A DNA stretch of 64,000 bases from NCBI RefSeq assembly GCF_000504305.1, contig NZ_KI632512.1, forward strand, positions 1,362,250 to 1,426,249. The letters run 5' to 3'. Numbering within the stretch: position 1 is the stretch's first letter; each line of letters opens with the position of its first letter. The DNA comes from Nitratidesulfovibrio termitidis HI1 (GTDB lineage Bacteria; Desulfobacterota; Desulfovibrionia; Desulfovibrionales; Desulfovibrionaceae). Positions 20,180 through 54,856 of the stretch are shown here, in pieces. A program made the translations under genes and the position numbers. The notes below the pieces were generated by a model. That model saw only the letters and a list, made by a program, of their open reading frames with translations. It did not search any database and had not been told where the DNA came from.

Positions 20180-20181
20180 TG

Positions 20182-22345: not shown

Positions 22346-22346
22346 G

Positions 22347-25105: not shown

Positions 25106-25108
25106 GGG

Positions 25109-25702
25109 TTACCTCGCCAGAAGCCAGGGGTTGATCTCCACGGGGTCGGACGCGCCCTCGGCGGCGTCGGCCACGCGGGCGGCCTCCAGGGCATCCCCGA
25201 ACCGCTGGAGCATGGCCTGCTCGGTGCGCGAACTGTTCATGAGCGGCACGGCCAGCGCGGCGGCCAGACGGCGGGCCAGCGCCTCGACGAACAGCGCCGG
25301 GAAGCGGGCCGGGTCGGTGACGCGCACGGTCAGCACCGCTTCTGCCGGGGCCGCGTCGGTGTACAGGGTGCGGGCCTCCACCACCTCGAAGGGCGGCTCG
25401 CCGCGCAGGCGGCGCACCCGCAGGCAGTCGCCGGGCAAACGGTAGGCGCAGGCAAAGCCGAAGGGCGGCACCGCCGCCAGCGGGGCCAGCGAGGTGTAGC
25501 GGGTGGCGAAGTTCCAGTGGTGGTGTTCCAGCAGTTCGTCGCGGGCTTCCGCGTAGTAGCGGGCGCACAGGTCCGCCTCGCGCGAGGGCTGGTCCAGGGC
25601 CACGATTTCCGGCGCGCCCAGGTAGCGCAGGGCCTTGTTGCAGATGGACACCTCGCTGGTCTGGACCGTGCTGCCGGAAGTGAAACCGGGGACGGCGCTC
25701 AT
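25109..25702 (-). CDS. Head-tail adaptor / tail tubular protein A (T7 gp11-like)
   Basis: This is a 197-residue protein with the standard start of this family: VSICNKALRYLGAPEIVALD, followed by ARYYAEARDELLEHHHWNFA. A late helical region contains FPALFVEALARRLAAALAVP. Twelve copies would form the ring between portal and nozzle. The start overlaps the upstream gene by ATGA (25699-25702), and the stop lies 3 nt before the nozzle start. Confidence 0.88.
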   Translation of the reverse strand: MSAVPGFTSGSTVQTSEVSICNKALRYLGAPEIVALDQPSREADLCARYYAEARDELLEHHHWNFATRYTSLAPLAAVPPFGFACAYRLPGDCLRVRRLRGEPPFEVVEARTLYTDAAPAEAVLTVRVTDPARFPALFVEALARRLAAALAVPLMNSSRTEQAMLQRFGDALEAARVADAAEGASDPVEINPWLLAR

Positions 25703-26295
25703 GACCGCCCCCTGCCGCGCGGGCGGCCACCGGTTCCCTTGGCGCCCCCGGCGCTTCCGGTAACGCCGATATCCGCCGCCGCCACGCGCTGCCGTTCGCG
25801 CAGATGGCGGGCCGTGTCCCGACGCATGGCGGCGCTGGGCGGCAGGTCGGACTCCGTTGCCGGGACGGCATCGGCGGCAGAGACAGTCGGATCGGGCGTG
25901 TCGCCATCGCCCGCCGTACCCGTTGCGCCAGCGACACCGGGCGTACCCGTCGCGCCCATCACGGGAGCCCCGCCCCCCTGCCCCTCCGCGGCGCGCAGCA
26001 TGCGCCTCAGGGTGGCCTCGTCGGTGGACGGGTCGAAGGCCACCCCCAGCAGGGCCAGCCGGGCGCGCAGGGTCGCCAGGCGGAAGCGTCGCACGTCCTC
26101 GCGGGTGGGCGGCCCGGTTGATTCGGACGTTTCCGCCATGTCGGCAGAAGCGGACGAGACGGGCGAAGTGCGCAGGAGGGGCGAAGCAGGGGCCGCCGCC
26201 GCACCGGGGGCGCACGCCGCCGGTTCCTCGTGTACCGCCGGGGCCTGGCCCGGTACTCCATCCTTGGTCATGTCATCGGTCACGTCATTGATCAT
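25699..26295 (-). CDS. Phage protein with a HeH/LEM-like helix pair, between cement and adaptor genes
   Basis: This 198-residue protein is largely low-complexity (Ala, Pro, Gly, Thr), with one ordered segment at about 70-100: RLATLRARLALLGVAFDPST and EATLRRMLRAAEG. This looks like the small HeH/LEM fold seen in phage head-tail region proteins. A Gly/Thr collagen-like piece (GATGTPGVAGATGTAGDG) and an Arg-rich tail (GRPRGRGRS) follow. The start is ATG 26295 with GGAGG 8 nt upstream. A role in head completion is inferred from position only. Confidence 0.6.
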   Translation of the reverse strand: MINDVTDDMTKDGVPGQAPAVHEEPAACAPGAAAAPASPLLRTSPVSSASADMAETSESTGPPTREDVRRFRLATLRARLALLGVAFDPSTDEATLRRMLRAAEGQGGGAPVMGATGTPGVAGATGTAGDGDTPDPTVSAADAVPATESDLPPSAAMRRDTARHLRERQRVAAADIGVTGSAGGAKGTGGRPRGRGRS

Positions 26296-26372
26296 GTGGG
26301 GCACCTCCGTGCCGTGTTCCCCGCCCGCCCCGTTACGGATGGGGCGGGCGGGGGTTGCGATCCGTGGCCGCG

Positions 26373-26771
26373 CTAGCGCGGCAGGTAGTCGAAGACGACG
26401 TCCACGGTGCCGGAGGCCCCGGCGTCGTCGGTGCCGATCACCACGCGCACGTGGCGGCGGCAGTCGGAAGGCAGGGGCAGGCGGCCCAGCACCTCGCCGT
26501 CGGCCCAGGTGCGCCCGCCCGGGGCGGAGCGCCGGAACGACACCGGCAGCGCGGCAAAGGCCGTGCCGTCGTCGCTGTCTTCCAGCATCAAGGTAAGGCT
26601 CTTGCCGTCGCCCAGGGTGACCGGCGTGGCGGCCACGGCGGCCACCTCTGCCGCGCCCATCATCGAACCCGCGCGCTGCGGGCCGCCGTTGCCCACGGCC
26701 TGGGCGTTTTTGGGCAGTTCCTGCCCCTTGGCCAGATGTTCGCCATGCACACGCAGCATGTGTCCGTACAT
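26373..26771 (-). CDS. Capsid cement/decoration protein (Bbp16-like)
   Basis: This is a 132-residue protein. The body, with SLTLMLEDSDDGTAFAALPV, LGRLPLPSDCRRHVRVVIGT and a final GTVDVVFDYLPR, has the beta-rich pattern of Bbp16-type capsid cement proteins of BPP-1-like podoviruses. It follows the major capsid gene by 75 bp, the usual place. Start 26771 is preferred (GGAG 6 nt upstream) over an in-frame ATG at 26795. Confidence 0.7.
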   Translation of the reverse strand: MYGHMLRVHGEHLAKGQELPKNAQAVGNGGPQRAGSMMGAAEVAAVAATPVTLGDGKSLTLMLEDSDDGTAFAALPVSFRRSAPGGRTWADGEVLGRLPLPSDCRRHVRVVIGTDDAGASGTVDVVFDYLPR

Positions 26772-26846
26772 GCGTTTCTCCTTGTTCATCGGCACCGCCG
26801 GGCGGTTGCCGTCATGGTGTTGCGGAAGGGACGCGGCGCGGGGCCG

Positions 26847-27761
26847 CTACAGGGCAAGCACCTGTTCGGTGCCGTCCTTGAAGTTGTAGGAAGTGACGAT
26901 CTCGATGCCGTTCCAGTGGGTGATCTGGCGGTCCATGTCCTTGCCGCCGGGCACGATCTGCAGGGCGCCGGCCTTGTAGCGGTACAGCAGGTTGCGGGCG
27001 CGCTCGTGCATGAACAGGTAGGTGGAGCCGGAGGTGGCGCGCACCTGGGCCAGCATGTCGTCGATCATGGCCTCGGTGGGCACATGGTCGCGGCTGACGT
27101 TGACGATGGCCGCCACGCTGTGGGGGTTGGCGATCTGGATGCCCAGGTACGACTTCAGCCGCAGGCCGAACACCAGCACGCCCTGGTACTGGCCGCTGGT
27201 GGCCTTGTAGAGTTCGCCGCCGTTGATGGACTGCACGTCCAGCACGGTGCCCTGCTTGAAGCATTCCGGACTGTACAGGCCGCAGGTTTCGCCTTCGACG
27301 AAGCGCACGGCCAGCATGGAGTAGCAGCCGCCCGCCGTGGCCCCGGCGTCGGTGACCGCGCCGTGGTCCAGGGCGAAGGCGCGGAAGTTGTCGTAGATGA
27401 TGCGCTGTTCCGCCGACATGCCCGAACGGCGCAGCACCTTGGGCATCTTCTTGGAGAAGTACTTTTCCTTGCCGCCGAACATGCGGGCGGTGTCTTCGGG
27501 CACCTCGATCTCGCCGCCCAGGATGGACAGGTCCACCTTGCGCAGGTTGCTGGTCACCTCCACCGAGGGCAGGGGGGCGTTCATGTCCACCCAGCCCGCG
27601 CCCTGCACCTCTTCCACGTCCTCGTACATGTTCCACAGGCCGTGGCTGGCCTCTTCGAAGGGAACGATGCCCAGGATGGGGGCCTCCTCGGTCAGCCCGT
27701 CCACCTGCTGCGGCTGCGTGGATGCCTGCTCGTTGCTCAGATCCTTCAGCGTCTTGCCCAT
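26847..27761 (-). CDS. Major capsid protein (BPP-1-like podovirus type)
   Basis: This is a 304-residue protein. Recognisable features are an acidic N-arm, WVDMNAPLPSVEVTSNLRKV, a conserved FGGKEKYFSKKMPKVLRRSG, and a C-terminal part with TYLFMHERARNLLYRYK and MDRQITHWNGIEI. Gene order and pattern match the BPP-1 group, whose capsid protein has a rearranged HK97-like fold. GGAGG lies 9 nt before ATG 27761. The frame is intact and full length, which argues against decay. Confidence 0.85.
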   Translation of the reverse strand: MGKTLKDLSNEQASTQPQQVDGLTEEAPILGIVPFEEASHGLWNMYEDVEEVQGAGWVDMNAPLPSVEVTSNLRKVDLSILGGEIEVPEDTARMFGGKEKYFSKKMPKVLRRSGMSAEQRIIYDNFRAFALDHGAVTDAGATAGGCYSMLAVRFVEGETCGLYSPECFKQGTVLDVQSINGGELYKATSGQYQGVLVFGLRLKSYLGIQIANPHSVAAIVNVSRDHVPTEAMIDDMLAQVRATSGSTYLFMHERARNLLYRYKAGALQIVPGGKDMDRQITHWNGIEIVTSYNFKDGTEQVLAL

Positions 27762-27780
27762 GCCGGATGCCTCCTGGCGG

Positions 27781-28452
27781 TTAACGTTTGGCGAACACGA
27801 CGGTCCGCAGGAAATCCTCGGTGCTCATGGCCTCGCCGCGCGCGCCCGCCGGGCCGCTGCCCGCGCCCAGCGTGTCCTCGCCCATGCGCTCGCCCACCAG
27901 GGCCATCAACTCGGCGAAGGCGGGATGGTTGCCGAGCCCGGCGCGCACCAGCGGGGCCAGCCGCCCCTCCATGCGGGTGTCCAGGCTGCGCACGGCGCGG
28001 CGGGCGGTATCGATACGTTCGTCGTAGCGGCCCTTCCACAGGGTGCGCAGGCCCGCCTCGCAGCCGTCGGCGGCAAAGCCGCCCGCCGTCTCGTGCTCGG
28101 CCACGTAGAAGTCCACGGCGGCGCGGGCCTGTTCCGGGGTCAGCCCCTGGGCGGCGCACAACGCGCGGAAGCGGTCCGCCGCCGCCGTGTCCACGCTGAG
28201 GTGGTCCGGCAGGTCGAAGGCGTAGTCGGCGGCGTTGCGCGCGGCGCCGGAAGCGCCGGGCGCATCGGGCAGGCCGGGGGCGGATTCTGCGGGGCTGACC
28301 GCGCTGCCGGGGGCCGCCGACGCGGTGTCGGGGTTCGCCGGAGCCGCCGGACCGGAGGGTACGGGCGCGCCCCCCATTCCGGATGTCCCGGATGTTCCGG
28401 ATGCGCCGCTCGCCGTGCCGGATGAAGGTGCCGGGGCCAGTGTCTGTTCCAT
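27781..28452 (-). CDS. Capsid scaffolding protein
   Basis: This is a 223-residue protein just upstream of the capsid gene. The N-terminal 75 residues are Ala/Pro/Gly/Ser-rich and disordered. The C-terminal part is helical, with LTPEQARAAVDFYVAEHETA, LWKGRYDERIDTARRAVRSL and a basic end (FLRTVVFAKR), as in scaffolds that bind capsid through a C-terminal helix. ACGGAGG precedes ATG 28452. The identity rests on position and composition; scaffolds diverge fast. Confidence 0.75.
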   Translation of the reverse strand: MEQTLAPAPSSGTASGASGTSGTSGMGGAPVPSGPAAPANPDTASAAPGSAVSPAESAPGLPDAPGASGAARNAADYAFDLPDHLSVDTAAADRFRALCAAQGLTPEQARAAVDFYVAEHETAGGFAADGCEAGLRTLWKGRYDERIDTARRAVRSLDTRMEGRLAPLVRAGLGNHPAFAELMALVGERMGEDTLGAGSGPAGARGEAMSTEDFLRTVVFAKR

Positions 28453-28544
28453 GGTGTCCTCCGTTGCAGGGTTGAACGCGTGAACGTTGAGGGTGTCTGT
28501 TGAAGACCCGCCTGTTGCAGGCGTGGTCATCCGGCGCGGACGGA

Positions 28545-29081
28545 TCAGTCCCGTCGCTCGCCGGGGTTCAGTTGTTCACCGGCCCAGCGCCGCGCCCCCT
28601 CCAACTGAATGCGCAGCAGGCTGGCCGGGTCGGCCATGGCGATTTCCGCCGTGCGGTCGCGGGCGTAGTCGTACAGGGCCGCGGCCCCGTGGATGGCGGG
28701 CTCGGGCCGGGACAGGCGGTCGTTGGCGCAGGCGGCGTCCAGCCAGTGGCGCAGCACGCGCACCCCGGCCCCGCCCTGCGTGCGCAGCACCGCAGCCAGA
28801 TCGTCGAGATAGGCGGCAAGCCGGGTGGTTTCCTCGCGCCGGGCATGGCGGGCTTCTTCCACCTCCGGCCCCAGCAGGTCGGTCAGCAGGCCGTCCGCAC
28901 CATTCAGGCCATCAGGGTCTGCGGCGTCCGCCACGGCGGTACGGGCCAGCAGGTCGGCCAGAACCACATCGGACTGCGGCACGTGGCCGGACTGCGGTGC
29001 GGAATCGGCCCGCTGCACGGAATCAGGGTGACGCCCACCGCCCGCCGTACGGGAAGGGATGGGAGAGGAATGACGGCTCAT
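28545..29081 (-). CDS. Phage protein of unknown role between portal and scaffold genes
   Basis: This is a 178-residue, mainly helical protein with a disordered first 35 residues. The C-terminal half contains LRHWLDAACANDRLSRPEPA and AALYDYARDRTAEIAMADPA. The start overlaps the portal stop by ATGA (29078-29081), and GGAGG lies upstream. Podoviruses often keep a small protein here; I do not recognise its function. Confidence 0.65.
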   Translation of the reverse strand: MSRHSSPIPSRTAGGGRHPDSVQRADSAPQSGHVPQSDVVLADLLARTAVADAADPDGLNGADGLLTDLLGPEVEEARHARREETTRLAAYLDDLAAVLRTQGGAGVRVLRHWLDAACANDRLSRPEPAIHGAAALYDYARDRTAEIAMADPASLLRIQLEGARRWAGEQLNPGERRD

Positions 29082-30901
29082 GCGCGCGCCTCCGTGGCCC
29101 GGCCCACCGGAGTGGGCGGGGCAGCCGGGGCAGGCGATGCAGGGGGCCGGGATGCCGCGGATGCCACGGACGGTGTGGCCGATGCGGCGGTGCCAGACGG
29201 GCCACTACCGCCGCTGCCGCCATTCCCGCTCGAAGCGCCGTCCCCTCCGTCCACGCCCAGCACCCTGGCCAGCGCGCTGGCGGCGCCCGCCGCCCCGCGC
29301 GCCACGGCAACGCCCTGCGCTGCCAGCCCGGCCTCGCGCTCCGCGCGCAGCCGCAGCACCTCGGCATCGGAGCGCACCACCCGTGCGGGCACCCCGCCGA
29401 TGGAGGCCAGTTCGTCCACGGCCTGCTCGAAGTCGATCTTGTCCAGCACGCCGGGCGCGGTGGCCGACAGGGCCGTGACCTCCGCCGCGAACTGGCGGAT
29501 GGACTGCGCCGCGCCCAGCCGCTGGGCCTGGGCCAGGGCCGAAACGTATTCCACGCGCATTTCCAGCCCTTCCAGTTCCGGCGGATTGGGCGGCAGCGCC
29601 CCGGCCCGGCGCAGGATGCCGTAGGTGCGCGTCAGCAGCGGATCGAGCAGTTCCGTCTGATGCCGCTCGATGACCGGGCCGAGCATGAGCAGCTTTTCCT
29701 GCCCGCGTTCGGCCACCTCTGCCGCCGTGACGTTGGAGCGCCCGTCAGCCGTGAACATCAGGAAGAGATCATTGAAGAACCCTTCGCGCACGGCCTTGCG
29801 CACGTCGTCGATCTTGCGCGTCACCGCCGCGATGTCCGGGTTGATCTGGTAGAGCGGGGCAACGGCCTCGGGCTGGCCCGGCGCCACGTAGTTCTGCGCG
29901 CCGGGAATCAGGTTGAGCCGCTGCTTGAAGCCGGTGGGCACGCGCATGGGCGGGTTGACCACCTTGTGGATGGCCAGCAGCTGGCTGCGGGCCATTTCCT
30001 GCAACATCTTGACGTCGGGCAGCACGTCCATGCCGGGCGAGCGGCCATACACGTCGCCGCCGGTGACGTCCCAGCGCGCGGCCAGATGCGGGAATTCCTC
30101 AAAGCCGCCCTCGTGCAGCAGATCCCCGGCAGCGCCGTCCGCCTCGAACACCAGCGACTCGAAAGGCATGTGCAGGTTGCCGCCGTGGCCGGGGGTACGC
30201 ATGGCGCGGGGCCGCACCAGGTGCACCACCTCCACGTGACGGTTGGGTTCCTTGCGCAGCATGCGCCGCGTGCCGCTGGACAGACGCGACTCGCCATAGC
30301 GTTCCGCCAGTTGGCGGGCGGTCATCAGCATGCGCCGCGCCACGGTGTCCACGCGGCCCGCCGCATCGCAGGCCCAGGAGAATTCGCCGCAGGTCAACGC
30401 GGCGAAGCGGGTCAGCCGTTCGGGGTCCACTTCCTGATACAGGTCGGCGGAACCGAAGGCGGCCAGTTCGGTGTAGAGCGCGTGCGAGGCCTGGTAGAAG
30501 TTGCTGCGGGCCAGCGCCCAGTACAGCCGCTGTTCCACCGCATCCAGCCAGCGGCGGGCCGGGCCCGATTCCGCGTCGGCCCCGTCGGCCAGGCGCAGGC
30601 GGAACCAGGGCCGCGCGGGCGAGGTAAGCCCGCCCTGCATGCCCGCCGCCAGGATGCGCACGGCGCGGGTGGCCGTGGCGTCGATGACGCGCCCGCCGCG
30701 CGTGTCGGAAGTTCCGGGCACGCTGGACGGGCCACCCCCCGAAGCGGACGCGGGGGCGCCCAGCGGATCGCGCCCGTGCATGCGTCCGCGCCGGGGCAGG
30801 ACGTAGGCGGCGATGTCGCGCCACGCCTCTTCCCACGGCGAACGCTGCCGCTCCAGAAAGTCCACCGCCTCGCGGGCGTCGCGCAGTCGTTGGCTGGTCA
30901 T
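29078..30901 (-). CDS. Portal / head-tail connector protein (T7 gp8-like)
   Basis: This is a 607-residue protein of normal podovirus portal length. It has the expected start (WEEAWRDIAAYVLPRRGRMH), then RAVRILAAGMQGGLTSPARP and WFRL, SEFSWACDAAGRVD-like wing residues, YGRSPGMDVLPDVKMLQEMA, and MTARQLAERYGE. The last 90 residues are Ala/Gly-rich and variable. The dodecameric portal is the DNA entry channel. It is the second gene of the operon, 10 bp after a small Pro-rich protein; no large terminase gene precedes it, which is unusual. Confidence 0.92.
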   Translation of the reverse strand: MTSQRLRDAREAVDFLERQRSPWEEAWRDIAAYVLPRRGRMHGRDPLGAPASASGGGPSSVPGTSDTRGGRVIDATATRAVRILAAGMQGGLTSPARPWFRLRLADGADAESGPARRWLDAVEQRLYWALARSNFYQASHALYTELAAFGSADLYQEVDPERLTRFAALTCGEFSWACDAAGRVDTVARRMLMTARQLAERYGESRLSSGTRRMLRKEPNRHVEVVHLVRPRAMRTPGHGGNLHMPFESLVFEADGAAGDLLHEGGFEEFPHLAARWDVTGGDVYGRSPGMDVLPDVKMLQEMARSQLLAIHKVVNPPMRVPTGFKQRLNLIPGAQNYVAPGQPEAVAPLYQINPDIAAVTRKIDDVRKAVREGFFNDLFLMFTADGRSNVTAAEVAERGQEKLLMLGPVIERHQTELLDPLLTRTYGILRRAGALPPNPPELEGLEMRVEYVSALAQAQRLGAAQSIRQFAAEVTALSATAPGVLDKIDFEQAVDELASIGGVPARVVRSDAEVLRLRAEREAGLAAQGVAVARGAAGAASALARVLGVDGGDGASSGNGGSGGSGPSGTAASATPSVASAASRPPASPAPAAPPTPVGRATEARA

Positions 30902-30911
30902 GCCCGGATCC

Positions 30912-31139
30912 TCACAGTCCCAGCAGCGTCTTGCGCTGGGTGTCGGGGGTGCCGGGCACGCCCAGCGCCCCGGTCAGGATGGTGCCCTGCCTGCCCCGCG
31001 CGCGCAGTGCGGCGCGGCGGGCGTCCTCGCGCGCGTCCTCCACGGCCTTGGCCTCCTGCTCGGCCACCTCGTCGGCGGCCGGGGGCGCGGGAGGAGCCGG
31101 GGGCTCCGGGGCCTTGTACGATTTGCCGCCACCACCCAT
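30912..31139 (-). CDS. Small Pro-rich phage protein, first gene of the virion operon
   Basis: This is a 75-residue protein. A Gly/Lys start (MGGGGKSYK) is followed by a run of Pro-Ala (APEPPAPPAPPAADEVAEQE), a charged helix (AVEDAREDARRAALRARGRQ) and a terminal GTILTGALGVPG and QRKTLLGL. The end resembles the GxxILTG motif of short podovirus proteins found just before the portal gene. GGAGG is upstream of ATG 31139. Its role is unknown. Confidence 0.65.
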   Translation of the reverse strand: MGGGGKSYKAPEPPAPPAPPAADEVAEQEAKAVEDAREDARRAALRARGRQGTILTGALGVPGTPDTQRKTLLGL

Positions 31140-31290
31140 GGCATTGCCTCCTTGCTTCGGTGCGCGGACGTCTCGCGGGGCCGGACCACCCGGCCACCAC
31201 GGCCGCGCCGCGTGAGCAGGTGGTACACCCCGCTTTTCGGGCGGATGCGGCCGGAAGGGGGTTGGAAGGGGGGCGCGGGGGTGTACGAGA

Positions 31291-31304
31291 CATGCGCGCG
31301 CATG
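31291..31304. promoter_or_regulatory. Perfect 14-bp palindrome in the virion operon leader
   Basis: CATGCGCGCGCATG is self-complementary over 14 bp. It lies about 150 bp before the first virion gene and directly past the T-run of the minus-strand terminator. It is a candidate operator; alternating GC also makes a chance palindrome more likely than usual. Confidence 0.4.
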
Positions 31305-31308
31305 ACGC

Positions 31309-31359
31309 AAAAAAACGTGCAGCCCGCCCGAAACGGGAAAACCGGAATCGGGCGGGCTG
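31309..31359 (-). terminator. Intrinsic terminator reading toward the virion operon
   Basis: CAGCCCGCCCGA (31320-31331) pairs perfectly with TCGGGCGGGCTG (31348-31359). On the minus strand the stem is followed by CACG and seven T residues (complement of 31309-31315). It would stop transcripts coming from 31.4-31.8 kb about 170 bp before the first virion gene. No gene lies upstream of it on that strand, so it acts as an attenuator or insulator. Confidence 0.75.
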
Positions 31360-35818: not shown

Positions 35819-35851
35819 GACGCCCCCGCCCAGCGGGGGCGTCTTTGTTTT
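35819..35851 (+). terminator. Strong Rho-independent terminator
   Basis: A perfect 10-bp stem (35819-35828 with 35834-35843, GACGCCCCCG) and 5-nt loop is followed by TTTGTTTT. It insulates the downstream holin operon. Confidence 0.9.
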
Positions 35852-35951
35852 GCGCGCCCGTCGCCTCCCTCCCCGCCCAATATCCTGTCCTGTGCCAGCG
35901 GCTTCACCCACCGCCCATCACTCCCGTTCTGACGCACGACCAGCACGGCCG

Positions 35952-35982
35952 ACATGGCCGCGCACCCTCGGGACGGCCATGT
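35952..35982. promoter_or_regulatory. 9-bp inverted repeat upstream of the holin operon
   Basis: ACATGGCCG (35952-35960) is the exact reverse complement of CGGCCATGT (35974-35982), with 13 nt between. It is about 120 bp before the holin start, within the 35852-36101 leader, where nothing else stands out. A dimeric regulator could bind here. Confidence 0.4.
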
Positions 35983-36101
35983 GGCCCCTTGGCCACCCTG
36001 CTGTGGCCCGCGTCGCCCCGCAAGACGGGTGTATGCACGTCCTCTCGCGCATGGCGGGCCGGGCATGCCGCCCGGCGGGCCCAGCGCGGAAGGAGCATGG
36101 C

Positions 36102-36638
36102 ATGGACTGGAATGGCATAGGCGCCACGGTGGCCCGGGTGGCCCCGCTGTTGGGCGCGGCGCTGGGAGGCCCCGTGGGCGCGGTGGCGGGCGCGGCGGGG
36201 GCGTTGCTGGGTTCGGCCCTGGGTGTCGCCCCGGAACCGGCCAGCGTGGCGGCGGCCCTGGGCGACCCGCAGGCCCTGACCACCCTGCGCGAGCTGGAAG
36301 TGCGCGAACGGGCACGGTTGCTGGACTGGCAGGCTGAACAGCTGCGGGCCGAACTGGACAACACCCGCGACGCCCGCGCGCGGGAGGTGGCCCTGGCACG
36401 TGCCGGACACGGAGGGGCATGGGTGACCGGTCTGGTGGCCCTGGTGGTGGTGGCCGGATTCTTCGGCATGCTGCGGGTGGTGCTGGAACAACCCTCGGTA
36501 AACGAACCGGCCCTGCTGTTGCTCGGCTCGCTGGGCACGGCCTTCGGCGCGGTGGTCAACTACTACCTGGGCTCGTCGCTGGGGTCGTTCCGCAAGGACG
36601 AACTGCGTTCCCGTGCCGGAGAGGGCGCCCCCCGATGA
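36102..36638 (+). CDS. Holin of the 3-TM, gene-transfer-agent type
   Basis: This is a 178-residue protein. The N-terminal hydrophobic Gly/Ala-rich segment (about 8-45) is followed by a charged helical part with LRELEVRERARLLDWQAEQL and ARAREVALARAGHGG. Two C-terminal membrane segments are WVTGLVALVVVAGFFGMLRV and the stretch with LLGSLGTAFGAVVNYYLG, ending SSLGSFRKDEL. This matches, from memory, the family named for gene-transfer-agent release (GTA_holin_3TM), also found in phages. Holins open the inner membrane at lysis. A GGAAGGAG site precedes ATG 36102. It is the first gene of a coupled three-gene operon. Confidence 0.85.
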   Translation: MDWNGIGATVARVAPLLGAALGGPVGAVAGAAGALLGSALGVAPEPASVAAALGDPQALTTLRELEVRERARLLDWQAEQLRAELDNTRDARAREVALARAGHGGAWVTGLVALVVVAGFFGMLRVVLEQPSVNEPALLLLGSLGTAFGAVVNYYLGSSLGSFRKDELRSRAGEGAPR

Positions 36639-36991
36639 CCGCTCCGAATGGACCCGTGAACGACGCCGGGGCACGCGACGGAGAACGCCGCGCCGAAGGG
36701 TGGCGGCTGGACCGCCGGGTGGGTGTGCAGGCACTGGCGGCGGCGGCCACGGCCTTTGCGGGGGCGGTGATGCTGGCGGCCACGGTGCAGGCCCGGCTGG
36801 ACGCCATGGAAGCTCGCGCCGCCGTCCTGGACGGGGATGTGCGGGCCACGCGCGAAACCGCCGTGTGCGTTGCCCGCATGGACGAACGGCTGGCCGCCGT
36901 GCAGCGCGCGCTGGAAGAAATGCGCACCGATCTGCGCCATCTGCGCGCCGAGGCCCGCGTGCCTGACGCCACGGGAAAGGAGGCCCGATGA
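36635..36991 (+). CDS. Membrane-anchored coiled-coil phage protein (lysis accessory)
   Basis: This is a 118-residue protein. A charged N-terminus (about 1-30) precedes one membrane helix (about 33-53, GVQALAAAATAFAGAVMLAA) and a coiled coil to the end (MDERLAAVQRALEEMRTDLR). The architecture resembles inner-membrane spanin subunits or holin partners, and the position between holin and small terminase agrees. Its ATG overlaps the holin stop (ATGA, 36635-36638), and its own stop overlaps the terminase start in the same way. Confidence 0.65.
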   Translation: MTAPNGPVNDAGARDGERRAEGWRLDRRVGVQALAAAATAFAGAVMLAATVQARLDAMEARAAVLDGDVRATRETAVCVARMDERLAAVQRALEEMRTDLRHLRAEARVPDATGKEAR

Positions 36992-37860
36992 GCACTACGG
37001 AAAACGGCGGGAGGGACACCAGGCCCCGCGCCGACGAAAGCGCCCACGGCGCCGAAACTTCCCGGCGTCCGGCTGGCCCGCAATGCGAAGGAGGCGGACA
37101 TCCTCCCCGGTTGGGGGTACGCCAACGCCGCTTCGTGGAGGAATTCCTGGTGGACATGTCGCCTGTGCGGGCCGCCGAACGGGCGGGGTACGCGCCGATG
37201 CGCGCGGCGCGCACCGCATCCAGGCTGCTGGGCATGCCCGCCGTGCAGCAGGCGGTGGAGCAGGCCATGGCCCACCGCACCACCCGCACCGGGGTGACCC
37301 AGGACCGGGTGGTGCGCGAACTGGCCGCCGTGGGATTCGCGGTAATGACCGACCTGTGCCACTGGTCCGACGAGGGCGTGCGGCTGCGTGACTCCACGGA
37401 GCTGACCCGCGCGCAGGCCGCCGCCGTGGCCGAAGTGCGCGAGGCATCCACTGCGCGTGCCCCACGTGGCCCGCGCGCCGCGCGCCCGGCACGCGGGCAG
37501 ACACACGGCCCTGACGAAGAACAGCCCGAAGCCCCGGTGCGCGGCGGTGTGCAGGTGAAACTGCATTCCAAGCTCAAGGCCCTGGAAATGCTGGCCCGCC
37601 ATCTCGGCATGTTCGGAAACGTCGCGGGCGCCGATGGCGATGCGCCACCGGGCGGCGACACACCTCCCGAACTGCCGGTGGAACTGCGCGCCCGCATCGA
37701 TGCGCTGTACCCGCACCATGGGGCGGATGCCGTCCGAAACCATGGCGGAGACTGCCGTGAAGACGGAGATGGCGCGGAGGATGACGGCGAAGGGGACTGG
37801 GAGGACAGCGAGGACAGGGACCACAACGGCTTCGACAGGGACGGCTGGGGGCCTGTCTAG
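36988..37860 (+). CDS. Phage terminase small subunit
   Basis: This is a 290-residue protein of the Terminase_2 type. RQRRFVEEFLVDMSPVRAAE, RAGYAPMRAARTASRLLGMP and the final core motif VKLHSKLKALEMLARHLGMF are diagnostic. It recognises DNA and regulates packaging by the large subunit. A long acidic extension (about 215-290) ending GWGPV is unusual. The large-subunit gene should follow but does not. In the same frame directly after the stop the sequence reads ERQLAEWRRRPSRWPQRVV, which looks like the beginning of a large terminase, then degenerates. Confidence 0.88.
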   Translation: MSTTENGGRDTRPRADESAHGAETSRRPAGPQCEGGGHPPRLGVRQRRFVEEFLVDMSPVRAAERAGYAPMRAARTASRLLGMPAVQQAVEQAMAHRTTRTGVTQDRVVRELAAVGFAVMTDLCHWSDEGVRLRDSTELTRAQAAAVAEVREASTARAPRGPRAARPARGQTHGPDEEQPEAPVRGGVQVKLHSKLKALEMLARHLGMFGNVAGADGDAPPGGDTPPELPVELRARIDALYPHHGADAVRNHGGDCREDGDGAEDDGEGDWEDSEDRDHNGFDRDGWGPV

Positions 37861-38263
37861 GCAGGCTGGCATGGGCGGCGGAAGGCAGGACCATGGGAAG
37901 GTACGGAACGCCAGCTGGCCGAATGGCGCCGCCGCCCAAGCCGCTGGCCGCAGCGGGTCGTTCCCGGTTGCCCCCGAATCGCTCCCCCAGTCGCCCCCCA
38001 GTCGCCCCTGCCACTTCCCGGCCCCCCCCGCCGATACCCAGCGACAGCCCGCCGGTATGGACCATGCCCGTGGCGGAAATTTTTCCGCCACGGGCAACCC
38101 GGCGTCACCATGCACACCTTTCGGCAGGGTCCGGCGGCACGGTGCAAGCGCCCCGGAAAAATAATGGAGGGTTGGCGACGGCAGCCGTACCAAAAGTATA
38201 GTCGGTCATGCGTCACCGGCGTTCCGCTGGGTGAACGCCGGGCGCAACCGCAAGGAGCGATCC
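37861..38263. other. Region after the small terminase; possible large-terminase remnant
   Basis: The first about 90 bp, read in the terminase frame past its stop, resemble the start of a large terminase (see the terS entry). The rest is C-rich and non-coding. A 14-bp perfect hairpin lies at 38066-38095. TATAGT at 38197 and an 8-bp stem at 38216-38241 lie before the next gene. Confidence 0.4.
38066..38095. terminator. 14-bp perfect hairpin after the holin/terminase operon
   Basis: GCCCGTGGCGGAAA (38066-38079) pairs with TTTCCGCCACGGGC (38082-38095). The A/T-rich top would open into a loop. No T-run follows, so it is terminator-like but not proven. Confidence 0.6.
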
Positions 38264-38467
38264 ATGAAGGAACCCATGCCCGGCCTGGTGACCTGTACCT
38301 TCTGCGGACGCAGCTTCGATGCGTCACCGGAGCAACATCAACGCGAACTGCGCCCCCTGCATGACGAACACTTCTGCCTCGACTGCGCCTGCCACGCCGA
38401 CCCTGCCATCCTGGCCGTGATCGGTGAAGACCGCCTGCTGGACATCATCGAAAACTGGTACGGATAG
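38264..38467 (+). CDS. Small zinc-ribbon-like protein, 67 aa
   Basis: This is a 67-residue acidic protein with two Cys pairs: CTFCGRSF near residue 10 and CLDCAC near residue 42, enough for one zinc site. A conserved-looking helix follows (AILAVIGEDRLLDIIENWYG). AAGGAG sits 7 nt before ATG 38264, and an 8-bp stem-loop (38216-38241) lies just ahead of the site, which could affect translation. Such tiny ribbons are common in Desulfovibrio genomes; function unknown. Confidence 0.7.
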   Translation: MKEPMPGLVTCTFCGRSFDASPEQHQRELRPLHDEHFCLDCACHADPAILAVIGEDRLLDIIENWYG

Positions 38468-50726: not shown

Positions 50727-51017
50727 TTAATGCCCGCGCGCGGGCCCGGCCCCCCGTTCGTAACGGGCACCGCCGTCCGGAGTCGTCCCGGCAGGATGCC
50801 CGGTGGGCAACGCCCCGCGCGGGGTGGCTTCGTGCCCTCCCCAAAACCACCGCCGCACCGCGTCGGGATCGGCCCGGTAGGTCCCGTCCGAGCATCTGCG
50901 GGCGGGAAATCCATCCTCGCGAATCCAGCGCTTCACCGCCCCCTGGCCCGCGCCCACGGCGCGACCTATGGCGTCCAGCCCGACCAATACAAAGGGCACA
51001 CACGACGGATCGTGCAT
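50727..51017 (-). CDS. Small helix-turn-helix (excisionase/MerR-like) protein
   Basis: This is a 96-residue protein. The N-terminal 55 residues form a winged helix of the excisionase/HTH_17 kind: LVGLDAIGRAVGAGQGAVKR, WIREDGFPARR and YRADPDAVRRWF. The remaining part is disordered (Pro/Gly/Arg-rich). GGAGG stands 3 nt before ATG 51017. It is the last gene of the leftward unit that starts at the repressor control region, so a regulatory or DNA-packaging recognition role is possible. Confidence 0.7.
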   Translation of the reverse strand: MHDPSCVPFVLVGLDAIGRAVGAGQGAVKRWIREDGFPARRCSDGTYRADPDAVRRWFWGGHEATPRGALPTGHPAGTTPDGGARYERGAGPARGH

Positions 51018-51335
51018 CCCCCTCCGTACCGGCCCCGGGGCAAAATCGAGATCCGCCTCCCGGCCCGTGGCCGCAGGATACGCCCCGGCCCGCCCCCCCC
51101 CAGGACCGGGAACCCTCCTGGCGAGCCCCCATGGACCAAGGCCCGCCGCACCCGCAGACACCAGGGGGCATCCGCGCCACCTCCGGAACATGATCGTGCA
51201 CAAGCCGTTGCTGTGGTTGCTGCGCGCCGTGCATGCGGCCTTCCTCCCTGTTGCGCGGCACCTTGCGCCGCGGCTGACGTTGCATCACGAACGATCCGTG
51301 CCGGTCGTCTCCCCCACGCAGATGCTGCGCGAGCC
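51018..51335. other. Gap of 318 bp within the leftward operon
   Basis: No gene with a ribosome site was found on the minus strand. A GCGCGGC/GCCGCGG pair near 51253-51275 could form a hairpin between the SSB-like and HTH genes. Confidence 0.35.
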
Positions 51336-51878
51336 TCAGTGCATGCGCCCCGACGGCATGCCCGGCACCCCTCCGGCCATATCCGGAGCCTGCGGCCACG
51401 GCAGCGGCCACGCCCCGGCATCGTCCCCGGCAGGGGCATCGGGCCCCCGACCAGGGATATCCACCCCGGCGCACCGGACACCGGCCAGGGATGCCTCGAC
51501 GCGCGCGGCGGGAATCGCGGCGGGGCGCACTGGCGCATGTGCGGGCGCATGCATGGGCGCATGCGCTGGTGGCCCGGAGCGACGGTCGTCCTCCACGACC
51601 TGAACCAGCCATGCAGCCACCACGGCGCAGGCTTCTCCCCCCTGCGCGCAGGCCAGCAATTCTCCTTCCACGTGCACCAGCATGCCGCGCCGCAACCGCG
51701 CAAGGCACCATGCAGCCTGGTCACCGGTGACGCGCACCCGGTGCCGCTGGCCCGCGTCGTCCTGTCCGGCGCCCTCGGTGCTGACGGAAAACAGCACGCA
51801 ATGGCCTGGCGTACCGGTTCCGGGCCGGGGCGCGGACATCACGCGCCCGAGCAGCATCACTCTGTTCACAGCCGCCAT
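51336..51878 (-). CDS. Single-stranded DNA-binding protein-like (phage type)
   Basis: This is a 180-residue protein. The first 90 residues have the OB-fold pattern of SSB: NRVMLLGRVMSAPR at the start, then CVLFSVSTEG, HRVRVTGDQAAWCLARLRRG and VHVEGELLA. The C-terminal half is Ala/Pro/His-rich and does not end in the acidic DDIPF-type tip, so it may not recruit the host SSB interactome. A GAGGA site lies 7 nt before ATG 51878. It sits in a phage-like leftward operon opposite the repressor. Confidence 0.75.
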   Translation of the reverse strand: MAAVNRVMLLGRVMSAPRPGTGTPGHCVLFSVSTEGAGQDDAGQRHRVRVTGDQAAWCLARLRRGMLVHVEGELLACAQGGEACAVVAAWLVQVVEDDRRSGPPAHAPMHAPAHAPVRPAAIPAARVEASLAGVRCAGVDIPGRGPDAPAGDDAGAWPLPWPQAPDMAGGVPGMPSGRMH

Positions 51879-52046
51879 GCGGCATCCTCCTCTGCGACGG
51901 TCCACGTCGCACCAGCCGCGTCGCGTTGCTCACGCGGATCGGCATATCCCGTACCGGCACGGGGCGCGCCGGACGGCGTCCTCGCCGTGTGGCGGCTTAC
52001 CGGCCGAGCCCCTCGCCGGTACCAGCCGTTCGCCCTTCGGCGGGCC

Positions 52047-52478
52047 TCAGAATCCAAGCACCATATCCGGCATGCGAAACAGGTCGCGACCGTAGCAATC
52101 CGGCGGAATGTCGCCCGAAGCCCACGGGTCCTCGAACAATCCGTGGTCCATGCCGTGTGCCGCCGCCTCGCAGCCGGGACCGCAAAACCTGTCCCGCAGC
52201 GTGGCGGGGGTAAACCTTCGCCCGCACACGGCGCAATCGCGCGGCTGCGGCCTGGCCTGCCCGGCAGCGGCCAGCGAGACGCATTCCCGCGAGCAGTAAC
52301 GACGATGGGCGCGCCCCGGCGGCATGGGGCCGCCGCACAACTGGCAGCGTTCGGGCCGCTCCAGGGTTCGCGCGGCAGCATGGCAGGACCGGCTGCAGTA
52401 CCGCCCCCGGCCATGCAGCAGCCGGGCGGGGTTGACGGAAAACGGCGTGCCGCAATGCAGGCAGGTCACTATCGGCAT
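52047..52478 (-). CDS. Triple zinc-finger protein
   Basis: This is a 143-residue protein with three tandem copies of a CxxC...(Y/F)C(S/G)xxC unit: CLHCG with YCSRSC, CQLCG with YCSREC, and CAVCG with FCGPGC. Each should bind one zinc. The last 40 residues are acidic and aromatic (MDHGLFEDPWASGDIPPD). Such fingers appear in phage homing endonucleases and DNA-binding accessory proteins, but no nuclease motif is present. An AAGGAGG site precedes ATG 52478. It overlaps the previous gene by 10 nt, indicating translational coupling. Confidence 0.75.
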   Translation of the reverse strand: MPIVTCLHCGTPFSVNPARLLHGRGRYCSRSCHAAARTLERPERCQLCGGPMPPGRAHRRYCSRECVSLAAAGQARPQPRDCAVCGRRFTPATLRDRFCGPGCEAAAHGMDHGLFEDPWASGDIPPDCYGRDLFRMPDMVLGF

Positions 52479-52765
52479 GATGTACCTCCTTCAAAAAAGC
52501 GGTTGCACGCCTCCAGCGCGCGCAACCGGTTGCGCACCGTTTCGGGCGTGGGGTGGCGGGCCTCGTCGTGGCTTGCGTGGTACAGGCCAAGCAGTCGCCG
52601 GTGCTCGTCAACCTCTATGAACATCATGGGCAGCCGCCGGTCGTGCAGGCTGCACCCCTCGGCACAGGCCGGACACAACACCACCCTGGCCAGAACCTCG
52701 GCATCTTCCAGGCCGAAAGAACTTCCGCATACGGCGCACCTGGCGTCGCGTGACATCGCGTGCAT
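52469..52765 (-). CDS. Small zinc-binding protein, first gene of the leftward operon
   Basis: This is a 98-residue protein. CAVCGSSF and CPACAEGC give one zinc-ribbon site in the first 40 residues. Later it has RRLPMMFIEVDEHRRLLGLY, then HPTPETVRNRLRALEACNRF. The start is chosen at 52765 with GAGAGG about 7 nt upstream; 52771 and 52756 are in-frame alternatives. It is the gene closest to the repressor operators, so it is the likely first product after derepression. No family recognised. Confidence 0.65.
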   Translation of the reverse strand: MHAMSRDARCAVCGSSFGLEDAEVLARVVLCPACAEGCSLHDRRLPMMFIEVDEHRRLLGLYHASHDEARHPTPETVRNRLRALEACNRFFEGGTSCR

Positions 52766-52913
52766 TCCCATCCCTCTCGCTGCGTAGAAACCGGAACGGT
52801 CCGAGGAAGTTCTTCCGGCCCGAACCATCCCGAATCGGTTATCCTATACAAACGCCGTTTCCACCGGAACCGGCCCGATTGCCATCCACTCCGGCTGGCA
52901 GGCCACGCAGCGC

Positions 52914-52974
52914 GTCGCACATGGACATCAGGGCAGCGTCATTGCGTGCGCACAGATATTTCACACTTCGCACA
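52914..52974 (-). promoter_or_regulatory. Cluster of repressor half-sites for the leftward operon
   Basis: Three copies of the repressor half-site sequence are found: GTCGCACA (52914-52921), TGCGCACA (52947-52954) and TTCGCACA (52967-52974). They lie 150-210 bp before the leftward operon and next to the full operator at 53021. The leftward promoter is probably here; no clear -35/-10 pair was identified. Confidence 0.45.
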
Positions 52975-53014
52975 CAAACGTCAAGAGTATCGGTGCGCCG
53001 ATGGCAATTTTTCA

Positions 53015-53042
53015 TGGACATTCGCACAGAATGTGCTAACAT
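53015..53042 (+). promoter_or_regulatory. Repressor promoter with operator in the spacer
   Basis: TGGACA (53015-53020) and TAACAT (53037-53042) are 16 nt apart. The spacer is filled by TTCGCACA-GAA-TGTGCTAA (53021-53039), an inverted repeat with one mismatch per 8-bp arm. A repressor bound here would block RNA polymerase at its own promoter, 8 bp before the ATG. Confidence 0.7.
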
Positions 53043-53049
53043 CACATGC

Positions 53050-53799
53050 ATGAACGAGTACGATTCCACGGGTACCGACTGGGACGAACTTCGCGAGTAC
53101 GTCATCGACGCGCTGCACAGCGTGGGCGGCGTGAAGCGCCTTGCGGAAATCGCGGGGGTCAGCGAGCGCACCGTCTACGCCTGGAAGAACGGCGAACGTT
53201 TTCCCAGCCGCACCAACCTTGCGCGGCTCACCGAACACCTGGACCGCATTCCCGTCACCGGCGGGCCCCAGCCGCATCGGCGCGGCCTGCACGAACGCGT
53301 GCTGCGCCCCTACGGTGAATCCGCACGCGCGTCCGCCGGGCAACCGGAGGCGCCGGAAGAAGCCCGGCGTCTGGCCGAGGAGTTCGTCCTGGTGGACAGG
53401 GCGGAGGCGCGGCCCAGCGCGGGCGGAGGCTCCCTGCAGACCGACGGTCGCCCGCAGGAGCAGCACGCCTTCCGGCTGGACTGGGTGCTGGGCCGGGCAA
53501 GGTCCACCACCGGGCTGTGCCTTATGGAGGTCATGGGCCGCTCCATGGAGCGCACCCTGCACGACGGCGACCTGGTGCTGGTGAACCAGCACGACCATGC
53601 GCTGGCGGAAGACCGTATCTACGTGTTGCGAGTGCAGGACGAAATCTACATCAAGCGCTTTTCCCGCACGCCGGGGCGCTACCATTTCCGAGGGGACAAC
53701 CCGGAATTCGCCTACCAGGACATCGAGATCGACCCTCGCGACGACACCCTGCAATGGGAGGTCATCGGCCGGGTCATCTGGGCGGGCAAGGAGCTGTAG
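53050..53799 (+). CDS. CI/LexA-type phage repressor with S24 peptidase domain
   Basis: This is a 249-residue protein. The N-terminal helix-turn-helix (about 22-62) includes GGVKRLAEIAGVSERTVYAW and KNGERFPSRTNLARL. A linker (about 75-130) precedes a C-terminal S24/LexA-like domain with the Ser in MGRSMERTLHDGDLVLVNQH and the Lys in YVLRVQDEIYIKRFS. Such repressors cleave themselves when RecA is activated by DNA damage, releasing their regulon. The start at 53050 is chosen over an overlapping out-of-frame ATG at 53046; the leader is very short. It is divergent from the zinc-finger/SSB operon, the usual immunity-region layout. Confidence 0.9.
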   Translation: MNEYDSTGTDWDELREYVIDALHSVGGVKRLAEIAGVSERTVYAWKNGERFPSRTNLARLTEHLDRIPVTGGPQPHRRGLHERVLRPYGESARASAGQPEAPEEARRLAEEFVLVDRAEARPSAGGGSLQTDGRPQEQHAFRLDWVLGRARSTTGLCLMEVMGRSMERTLHDGDLVLVNQHDHALAEDRIYVLRVQDEIYIKRFSRTPGRYHFRGDNPEFAYQDIEIDPRDDTLQWEVIGRVIWAGKEL

Positions 53800-54000
53800 C
53801 CCGGCGCACGCCTTGCCACCCGCCTGCTCGGCGTGTCCCGCCCAGACCGGTCGCCCCTCTCCCCATCCGCCATCATCCGGCCTCATCCGGCCAAGTTTGA
53901 CCGGGCATGGCATGGCCGACCCTGCCTTGCCCGGTTGTCCTATTCTGCCCTGCCCCTCCCCCCTGACGCCCCATCCCTTGCAACGCGCCCAGATGGACGC

Positions 54001-54019
54001 TTCGCACATTTTGTGCGAC
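54001..54019. promoter_or_regulatory. Second full repressor operator
   Basis: TTCGCACA-TTT-TGTGCGAC has perfect 7-bp arms (TCGCACA/TGTGCGA) with the same 3-nt spacing as the operator at 53021, and is preceded by the same TGGAC. It lies about 30 bp before the ribosome site of the 54051 gene. Confidence 0.7.
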
Positions 54020-54050
54020 CACGTTTTCCACATCGGAACACGGAGGTCCC

Positions 54051-54437
54051 ATGCACGTCACACCGGCCCTTACCGCGCCGCACGCCCCCATCCCCCAGTC
54101 GCTTTCCATCCCTGCTTCTCCACGCCAGGGGCACCAACCCGCCACCGCTGCCCAGCCCGGCGCCAGCACGGAATCTTCCGCGCGTGCCAGCGACTGGCAG
54201 TCCGCACCGCCACCACGCCACCGTCGCCCCGATGCCAGTGGCCGCCCCGTGTGGTCCGAGGGGCGCGGTCCCGAGCCCGCGCCGCCCTTCCTGATCCGCT
54301 GGCACCCCGTGGATGGAGCCCCGCGCCATGACCAGGCCGCCACCCCTGCCGAAGCCCTGGCCCTGGCCCGTGACGCACGCGATGCCACGTCGGCGGACGT
54401 TGCGGTGTACCGCCTGTGGAGCGTCCTGCCCGACTGA
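54051..54437 (+). CDS. Hypothetical protein with a repressor operator in its promoter region
   Basis: This is a 128-residue protein. The first 75 residues are Pro/Ala/Ser-rich and disordered. The last 50 form a compact small domain with PPFLIRWHPVDGAPRHDQAA, then TPAEALALARDARDATSADV and AVYRLWSVLPD. A GGAGG site is 5 nt before ATG 54051. It is 250 bp downstream of the repressor on the same strand but has its own operator copy at 54001, so it should be induced along with the leftward operon. Function unknown; a regulator or activator of the virion genes is conceivable. Confidence 0.65.
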   Translation: MHVTPALTAPHAPIPQSLSIPASPRQGHQPATAAQPGASTESSARASDWQSAPPPRHRRPDASGRPVWSEGRGPEPAPPFLIRWHPVDGAPRHDQAATPAEALALARDARDATSADVAVYRLWSVLPD

Positions 54438-54856
54438 CCCAAGGCTGCACCGCCCGGCATGTTCGCCTCTTTTGACTGGCCCGATTGGCCCGGCTGGCCT
54501 GATTGATTCGATTGATCCGGTTGGCCCGGCATATCCGGTTGGCCCGGCTGGCCTGATTGATCCGATTGGCACGCTTGGCACGCCCGGCACGCCCACCCGG
54601 TTGTCCCGCCCACGCGGCGTCCCTCACCGGCCCTGTGCCCGGTTTCTTTCGTGACGCGCCACTTCCGTGCCTTTTCCTGGCATCGCCGGGCCTTCCCGGT
54701 CACATCGGGCGCCTCGCATCCCCCGGGTCTTCCCCACGGCATCCCCCTTTCGGTATTTCCCACCTTCTGGACAATATTCCCCGCACTCGCCTATACTGCG
54801 TCATGCATCCCCGCCCGGCCCCCGCGGGCATCCCCATGGCCGGAAGGAGCCCCGCC
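54438..54856. other. Intergenic region, 419 bp, with 9-bp repeats
   Basis: It is occupied at 54477-54593 by a degenerate 9-bp array. The region 54750-54800 is the AT-richest part (GGTATTTCCCACC to CTATACTGCG) and probably holds the promoter of the hybrid kinase, with TATACT at 54791-54797 as a possible -10. Confidence 0.45.
54477..54593. repeat. Degenerate 9-bp tandem array, about 13 units
   Basis: Units are variants of TGGCCCGGC, TGGCCTGAT and TGATCCGAT. The order TGGCCCGGC-TGGCCTGAT recurs at 54486 and 54540, showing higher-order 54-bp duplication. Confidence 0.85.

Follow-up and report, generated by a model that had tools for sequence, protein, structure and literature searches.

A conserved operator on both sides of an S24-family repressor gene in Nitratidesulfovibrio termitidis, which may be the control switch of a gene-transfer-agent-like particle

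We analysed a stretch of 64 kb (the window; positions 1,362,250 to 1,426,249 of contig NZ_KI632512.1) from the genome of Nitratidesulfovibrio termitidis HI1, which consists of one contig of 4,257,954 bases and is called G000 below. The subject is an S24-family repressor gene, the palindromic operators O1 and O2 on its two sides, and a small operon read leftward from the same intergenic region; repressor and operon together are referred to as the cassette. The features of the locus are given below in window coordinates, and conservation refers to the eight genomes of the genus, G000 among them.

50727-51203, minus strand: winged-helix helix-turn-helix (HTH) protein, start codon uncertain; candidate intermediate activator
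51336-51905, minus strand: SSB-like protein (Pfam SSB 28.3 bits, cut-off 26)
52047-52478, minus strand: Zn143, with several zinc-finger-like CxxC pairs; 90-99% identical in the five other genus genomes with the full gene
52469-52828, minus strand: Zn119, small CxxC protein and first gene of the leftward operon (profile search and alignment)
52916-52921, plus strand: half-site h1, CGCACA, in all eight genomes
52949-52954, plus strand: half-site h2, CGCACA, just past the predicted leftward −10; GCGCACAG in all eight genomes
52956-52984, minus strand: predicted leftward promoter, −35 TTGACG (52984-52979), 17 nt, weak −10 AAATAT (52961-52956)
52969-52974, plus strand: half-site h3, CGCACA, within the spacer of the leftward promoter; TTCGCACA in all eight genomes
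52988-53003, plus strand: terminator-like inverted repeat ATCGG-N4-CCGAT with a T-run, between the two divergent promoters
53015-53042, plus strand: predicted repressor promoter, −35 TGGACA (53015-53020), 16 nt, −10 TAACAT (53037-53042), from consensus and conservation
53021-53039, plus strand: operator O1, TTCGCACAGAATGTGCTAA, of the pattern TTCGCACA-N3-TGTGCTAA, inside the repressor's own promoter
53050-53799, plus strand: S24-family repressor gene, 249 amino acids, with an N-terminal HTH and a C-terminal Peptidase_S24 domain
54001-54019, plus strand: operator O2, TTCGCACATTTTGTGCGAC, of the pattern TTCGCACA-N3-TGTGCGAC, 201 bp past the repressor stop and ahead of gene 54051
54051-54437, plus strand: gene 54051, 128 amino acids, with a GGAGGT ribosome site and a conserved C-terminal domain modelled as beta-beta-alpha-beta

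When the window was scanned with TTCGCACA-N3-TGTGCGAA, allowing up to three mismatches, O1 and O2 were the sole matches (mean of 0.20 in shuffled sequence, two matches being reached in 2 of 100 shuffles), and in the whole genome they were the only sites with one mismatch or fewer, followed by six sites with two mismatches. The pattern read backward, used as a control on the whole genome, gave 5 matches versus 28 for the real pattern at up to three mismatches, and 0 versus 8 at up to two. An earlier note on this DNA had proposed the palindrome as a specific motif to be checked by such a scan, and the expectation was correct, since the motif is not scattered at random and its near-perfect copies occur only at this locus. 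Both palindromes lie where the note had placed them, but O2 is not the more perfect copy that it described, because each site has one mismatch and O2 is better only in its uninterrupted arms (7 versus 5 bp). Similarly, TGGAC precedes both sites as described, but not at a conserved spacing, being 1 nt before O1 and 2 nt before O2; before O2, TGGA is kept in all eight genomes of the genus but the full TGGAC in only four, and ahead of O1 these letters are the opening five bases of the repressor −35 hexamer TGGACA.

The six sites with two mismatches were inspected for their context. Two lie in strongly coding frames (L004 and L007), one is probably coding (L008), and three are unclear (L003, L005 and L006); none of the six strings recurs among the sites with up to two mismatches in the seven other genomes of the genus. 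As the sites are partly coding and none recurs, they were set aside as further members of the regulon. The exact short core GCACA-N3-TGTGC occurs 7, 5 and 6 times in G000, G004 and G006, respectively, with two copies at the switch locus in each, whereas its backward control occurs 4, 6 and 0 times, indicating that the short core by itself is not specific. Nine of the 12 exact cores away from the locus were read (those left out are G000:C1:3636277, G000:C1:3917377 and G006:C13:19473), and seven of the nine lie in coding frames, including one at the identical place in G000, G004 and G006, in what we take from its sequence to be an isoleucyl-tRNA synthetase gene. The other two are possibly intergenic (L172 in G000 and L180 in G006), each in one genome. 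Because the cores elsewhere are mostly coding and the possible intergenic ones are confined to single genomes, the direct regulon is most simply read as three promoters at one locus, and it appears, judged by sequence, to be confined there. The earlier claim of a CI-type regulon with a shared operator therefore stands for this one locus, supported by conservation in 18 genomes, and not as a genome-wide regulon. That the operator and its local regulon are real we regard as very probable and well supported by the scans and the conservation described below.

Outside the genus, the cassette was found in G024, in G026 and in ten genomes that belong to another genus (g22). Conservation of the operator was determined in a footprint test set of 18 cassette-bearing genomes, eight of the genus and ten of g22. 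When one mismatch was allowed, GCACA-N3-TGTGC was found in the 600 bp that follow the repressor in all 18 genomes and exactly in 15 (0.64 of 18 in shuffles), and in the 260 bp that precede it in 16 and exactly in 10 (0.26 of 18 in shuffles). Five upstream matches in g22 at −233 to −235 were discounted as operators because these positions fall inside the Zn119 gene; a sixth, in G213, has two mismatches, and the genomes concerned are counted through a site at −57. Inspection by eye of G026, which has a repressor of 29% identity, found AGAACA-AAA-TGTTCT upstream and GAACTTTTTGTTC before the next gene at the matching places. The geometry is thus the same, with another half-site beside a diverged repressor, as co-evolution would give.

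Alignment of the 300 bp upstream of the repressor in the eight genomes of the genus is divergent, save for an island of about 110 bp before the gene and the short h1 site. In the island, h2 and h3 lie in a nearly invariant stretch of 45 bp, followed by the inverted repeat and then O1. Both arms of the repeat are changed together in G005, so that it is kept, and it is broken in G002. The three half-sites noticed earlier ahead of the leftward operon are indeed present, as CGCACA at 52916, 52949 and 52969; with the copy at 53023 they make four of the 43 occurrences of this hexamer on both strands of the window (about 0.07 expected per 110 bp). The intergenic region before gene 54051 is otherwise poorly conserved, and O2 is kept there in all eight genomes.

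A scan for sigma-70-like promoters from 52850 to 54080 made a single call, TGGACA-16-TAACAT (shuffle mean 0.3), and O1 lies in and over its spacer. The −10 hexamer of this promoter ends 7 nt before the ATG of the repressor, and none of GGAG, AGGA and GAGG occurs in the last 20 nt before the ATG in any of the eight genomes. Because the −10 is so near to the ATG and no Shine-Dalgarno-like tetramer is present, the repressor mRNA is probably leaderless. The leftward promoter was not picked up by the consensus scan; its TTGACG is kept in all 18 cassette genomes of the two genera, and its spacer holds TGTGC or TGTTC in 17 of them and AGTTC in G210.

The repressor matches Peptidase_S24 at 68.1 bits (cut-off 23.3) and HTH_3 at 21.7 bits, just below the cut-off of 23, and its best PHROG is PHROG 4, transcriptional repressor (7e-26). 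By alignment, it has a Ser-Lys dyad (GRSME and IYIKR) and an Ala-Gly pair in PSAGGGS, which we take to be the catalytic residues and the cleavage site typical of the family. These residues are kept in 18 of 18 proteins aligned, that is, in the eight of the genus, in G028 and in nine others of g22; by eye, they are altered in G024 (Lys to Arg) and in G026 (Ser to Cys and Lys to Arg). HTH and S24 domains, catalytic residues with Ala-Gly, and an operator in the gene's own promoter, deduced from motif and conservation, are traits of CI/LexA-type repressors that this protein shows. Since Ser, Lys and Ala-Gly are retained, induction by DNA damage is the simple expectation from the sequence. The seven other genomes of the genus carry the repressor at 84-97% identity, and the named records are Nitratidesulfovibrio liaohensis XJ01, N. 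oxamicus NCIMB 9442, Desulfovibrio sp. A2 and two metagenome-assembled genomes. Among phages it has only distant relatives, with less than 60% identity in each of 165 records.

The leftward operon and the repressor are syntenic in all eight genomes as far as the contigs reach, those of G003 and G007 ending inside Zn143. Relatives of Zn143 were found in 9 of 50,697 phage records, at 40% identity or less. The core of the HTH protein has 42 residues identical among the six genus copies aligned and 19 invariant columns over 18 sequences, and its structure model is helix-helix-strand-strand-helix with modest confidence (predicted local distance difference test, pLDDT, 68). Its best fold matches are weak and MerR-like (RacA, E 0.28; BldC, 0.9). 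The operon of G028 has an extra gene between the SSB-like and HTH genes (L061:9452-9943), with an endolysin-like Peptidase_M15_3 match of 19.1 bits, below the cut-off of 23.2. Gene 54051 has no match in Pfam or NCBIfam, and its family has no fold match at E ≤ 0.001. Past this gene, at 54480-54600 of the window, imperfect repeats of the GGCCCGGCTGGCCTGATTGATCCGATT type were seen by eye.

Particle genes lie elsewhere in the window as follows.

19862-31310, minus strand: podovirus-type virion operon, with portal, scaffold-like, capsid, tail tubular A and B, internal virion protein and tail fibre genes
26847-27761, minus strand: major capsid, epsilon15-type (NCBIfam epsilon15 gp7 model 144.9 bits, cut-off 75)
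27781-28530, minus strand: scaffold-like gene, assigned by position
29078-30901, minus strand: portal (Head-tail_con, 585 bits)
31223-31286: inverted pair GTACACCCC ahead of the virion operon (31278-31286 minus, 31223-31231 plus), a possible activator site noticed post hoc
35850-36638, plus strand: holin-like protein, by eye with possible membrane helices; PHROG 1544 (unknown function) 1.9e-19, no Pfam match
36988-37860, plus strand: small terminase, 290 amino acids (Terminase_2, 95.8 bits), on the strand opposite to the portal
38231-38467, plus strand: small zinc-finger-like protein of 78 amino acids downstream of the small terminase gene, with 87-92% identity in four more genomes of the genus; another candidate regulator

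From the cassette it is 12 kb to the holin/terminase operon and 19 kb to the virion operon, and the genes in between include motAB and, by eye, sensor-kinase-like genes. G004, G005 and G006 have the virion block in the corresponding position, with capsids 96-99% and portals 92-96% identical in the aligned part; in G001 it is found on another contig. Ratios of nonsynonymous to synonymous substitution (dN/dS, NG86) against G004, G005 and G006 were 0.07-0.15 for the capsid, 0.08-0.14 for the portal, 0.11-0.16 for tail tubular B, 0.17-0.24 for a 140-amino-acid protein, 0.13-0.27 for the holin-like gene, 0.05-0.15 for the repressor and 0.01-0.11 for Zn143; the host genes motA and motB gave 0.01-0.11. 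The capsid had no tblastn match at E 1e-5 in the 50,697 phage records, and its matches in IMG/VR were on contigs of 12.9-19 kb (4/8 loci, 96-100% identity).

We then compared the occurrence of the cassette and the capsid in 288 genomes of the family. A strong match to the HTH protein (E ≤ 1e-25) was found in 20 of them, namely the eight of the genus, G024, G026 and ten of g22, the next best match being 2.4e-13. The capsid matched in 50 genomes, and in 17 of these its identity reached 67% or more (six of the eight genus genomes, G024, G026 and nine of the ten g22 genomes with the HTH match), the cut of 67% having been set after viewing the list, at the gap between 67% and 65%. All 17 are within the 20 genomes with the HTH protein and none is among the other 268; none of the 20 belongs to the 33 genomes whose capsid matches are all weaker. 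The distance from the HTH gene to the capsid is about 23-24 kb in G000, G004, G005 and G006; where both genes share a contig in g22, in six genomes, it is 44-95 kb. According to the trees of 13 genomes, distances of the portal correlated with those of the repressor (Mantel r 0.80, 0/999 permutations) and of Zn143 (r 0.94, 7/10 bipartitions, 0/999 permutations).

The earlier note had seen no full operator ahead of the virion and holin operons by eye, and this was confirmed for the window at up to three mismatches. In addition, no site with up to two mismatches is at the virion block in G001, G004, G005 and G006, and G024, G026 and the six g22 genomes read have no exact core G[CA]ACA-N3-TGT[GT]C ahead of their virion operons, the sequence of G024 turning into a run of N from about 1 kb upstream. 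Because no operator precedes the virion operon, any control of the particle would be indirect, through a product of the leftward operon. The intermediate activator that the note had deduced is plausible, with the HTH protein at 50727-51203 as the candidate. The zinc-finger proteins of the operon are alternative candidates; Ogr of phage P2 is a zinc-finger activator.

As the best explanation of the whole, the palindrome would be the operator of the adjacent S24 repressor, and the cassette the vertically inherited switch of a domesticated epsilon15-like particle locus, to which we give a probability of about 0.6. What the sequence shows is an operator that is conserved and nearly confined to the locus, the layout of the promoters and the co-occurrence with virion genes; from these we infer binding, cleavage, an activation step and a particle function in the following way. 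A repressor dimer on O1 would cover the spacer of its own leaderless promoter, giving negative autoregulation; on h2 and h3 the repressor would shut the divergent promoter of the Zn119-Zn143-SSB-HTH operon, and on O2 it would silence gene 54051, perhaps with a loop to O1. All three promoters would be freed when the repressor cleaves itself at the conserved Ala-Gly, and the released operon would supply an activator, most likely the winged-helix HTH protein, which would turn on the scattered podovirus-type particle locus resembling a gene transfer agent. Natural selection has kept the switch and its operators throughout the genus and in some genomes outside it, along with particle genes of phage origin that the host seems to have adopted, so that the switch may control a gene-transfer-agent-like particle.

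Phage lambda CI is an S24 repressor that is autoregulated, faces a divergent early promoter and loops between distant operators, and its mRNA from PRM is leaderless. The present locus resembles it in the S24 repressor, the predicted autoregulation, the divergent promoter, the probable leaderless mRNA and the possible looping, but differs in lying outside a mobile prophage, in having three targets that flank the gene on either side within 1.1 kb, and in that no operator was found at late genes. In Caulobacter, RogA is an HTH and S24-type repressor without catalytic residues that represses gafYZ, its loss turns on a gene transfer agent, and it was enriched at two promoters only (PMC9632790). The two systems share an HTH and S24 repressor, very few direct sites and particle genes at several loci; RogA has no direct binding at the particle genes and acts via the activators that it represses (PMC9632790), and here no operator was found at the virion operon. 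In contrast, the operator is GCACA-N3-TGTGC here and GGAA-N4-TTCC in the RogA system (PMC9632790), and the virion genes here are podovirus-type with a single winged-helix candidate activator; the systems are likened by description.

In the same family, Desulfovibrionaceae, Desulfovibrio desulfuricans has the gene transfer agent Dd1, likewise a phage-derived particle (PMC6854486, PMC11841831). The predicted small terminase of Dd1, Ddes_0720, has 125 amino acids and is immediately upstream of the large terminase (PMC6854486, PMC11841831); the Terminase_2 open reading frame here has 290 amino acids, is on the strand opposite to the portal and has no large terminase recognised beside it, so that the organisation of the two seems to differ. 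FpGTA of Faecalibacterium, from another phylum, is a gene-transfer-agent-like element with podovirus-like morphology and two separate operons (PMC12946183); here, too, the structural genes are podovirus-like and the particle genes form two separate operons. Gene transfer agents are characterised by endogenised genes, often at several loci, by congruence with the host phylogeny and by particles that deliver random host DNA (PMC9662315). Here, the genes look endogenised, with the cassette and virion loci in place and separated by host genes. On vertical inheritance the observations are mixed, as the loci are syntenic in the genus and the portal and repressor trees correlate, but these two gene trees share 5/10 bipartitions. 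A mobile prophage would be discrete and variable among strains, but the locus is syntenic in 8/8 genomes as far as the contigs extend, with host genes between its parts, the search for integrases not being exhaustive.

Several results weigh against the reading as the switch of a domesticated particle locus. The upstream sites of G028 and G210 have two mismatches, and, of the six two-mismatch sites away from the locus, three do not lie in clearly coding sequence. In six g22 genomes, O2 is retained at a distance of 8-16 nt from the first base of the repressor stop, although no homologue of gene 54051 was found in the 8 kb examined (an apparent match to the gene in G209 was the repressor itself). 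Since O2 persists without gene 54051, repression of this gene cannot be the sole role of O2, and looping between O2 and O1 is a possible additional one. The nearly complete genome G028 has the cassette but no capsid match, and G003 and G007 have none either, both being assemblies of more than 800 contigs; furthermore, the capsid cut was chosen post hoc, and the 20 genomes with the HTH protein belong to only four genera, so that there were few independent events of co-inheritance. The portal and repressor trees share only 5/10 bipartitions, and against the repressor tree the capsid gave r 0.68 (5/10) and tail tubular B r 0.66 (6/10), each with 0/999 permutations. The HTH protein has no match in the Protein Data Bank (PDB) at E ≤ 0.001 by fold search, and RogA lacks the catalytic residues (PMC9632790), whereas the repressor here has the Ser-Lys dyad and Ala-Gly. 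Finally, a PF03237 search of the genome, which detects 6/14 control genomes and is one of several terminase families, yielded no large terminase; none was found near the portal, and a prophage large terminase as query had only a 25% match elsewhere in the genome. As no large terminase was located, a particle without DNA is possible.

Part of these observations would suit a stand-alone DNA-damage switch, with a small SSB/zinc-finger operon that has a host role unrelated to the virion genes. G028 carries the cassette and the downstream operator with no capsid match, the virion and holin operons are without operators, and the repressor, like those of the LexA type, has a conserved Ser-Lys dyad and Ala-Gly. 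Nevertheless, a related capsid accompanies the cassette in 17 of 20 genomes and is absent at 67% or above from the other 268 genomes of the family, the trees of the particle genes correlate with that of the repressor, and the operon proteins are phage-type, that of G028 including the sub-threshold endolysin-like match; we consider this alternative improbable. An ordinary cryptic prophage remnant or immunity region, with a CI protein and its operator and nothing domesticated, would account for the phage-like domain content such as the PHROG 4 repressor, and a prophage on contig 15 of G005 does carry an S24 gene, a Zn143 relative and portal and capsid genes. However, this explanation is already disfavoured and in our judgement quite unlikely, given the synteny in all eight genomes as far as contigs reach, dN/dS of 0.01-0.27 over the seven phage-type genes measured, the host genes that separate the cassette from the virion genes, the recurrence of both loci in another genus at a spacing of 44-95 kb, and a capsid without a match in the phage records. 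That the palindrome belongs to another regulator, such as the genome's LexA or another Xre/S24 protein, is very improbable, because despite the eight S24-domain matches genome-wide in G000 and a link of repressor and palindrome made through sequence, the only two near-perfect sites of the genome both flank this repressor gene, and the half-site changed with the diverged repressor of G026.

That the switch belongs to an adopted, gene-transfer-agent-like element is the best reading of its context, held at slightly below even odds. In a more specific proposal, Nitratidesulfovibrio and its relatives would have an undescribed gene transfer agent of podovirus origin, and its master switch would be the cleavage-competent, leaderless CI-like repressor with operators on both sides, acting through one operon whose winged-helix product activates the scattered virion, holin and terminase genes. 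This proposal is tentative and rather doubtful as a whole. Gene transfer agents are hard to distinguish from dead prophages, and here the conserved operator points to a switch; few of them have received detailed study (PMC12946183). In the open-licence literature, no paper naming both Nitratidesulfovibrio and gene transfer agents was found, and none describing this locus, as judged by title and opening of the abstract among part of the matches. If the operator part alone is right, the locus would still be a well-supported, compact CI-type regulon kept outside any mobile prophage.

The inverted pair GTACACCCC ahead of the virion operon is kept in the five genus genomes aligned; both copies are exact in G000, and the first has one mismatch in G005 and G006. 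GTCYACCCC is present ahead of the virion operon in all six g22 genomes read and not in G024 or G026. As the pair was noticed only after looking, it is a lead and no more. The string GTATCGGT was considered as a motif common to the virion and cassette promoters and is present at both, but as an 8-mer it is not significant. Two related prophages were also observed, one in G005 (G005:C15:8001-48000; L103 and L104), with its own S24 gene, a Zn143 relative, a capsid and, by eye, a large-terminase-like gene, and a second in G000 (G000:C1:1905001-1945000; L105 and L106), where an S24 gene occurs together with a portal relative that has one stop within the matched stretch.

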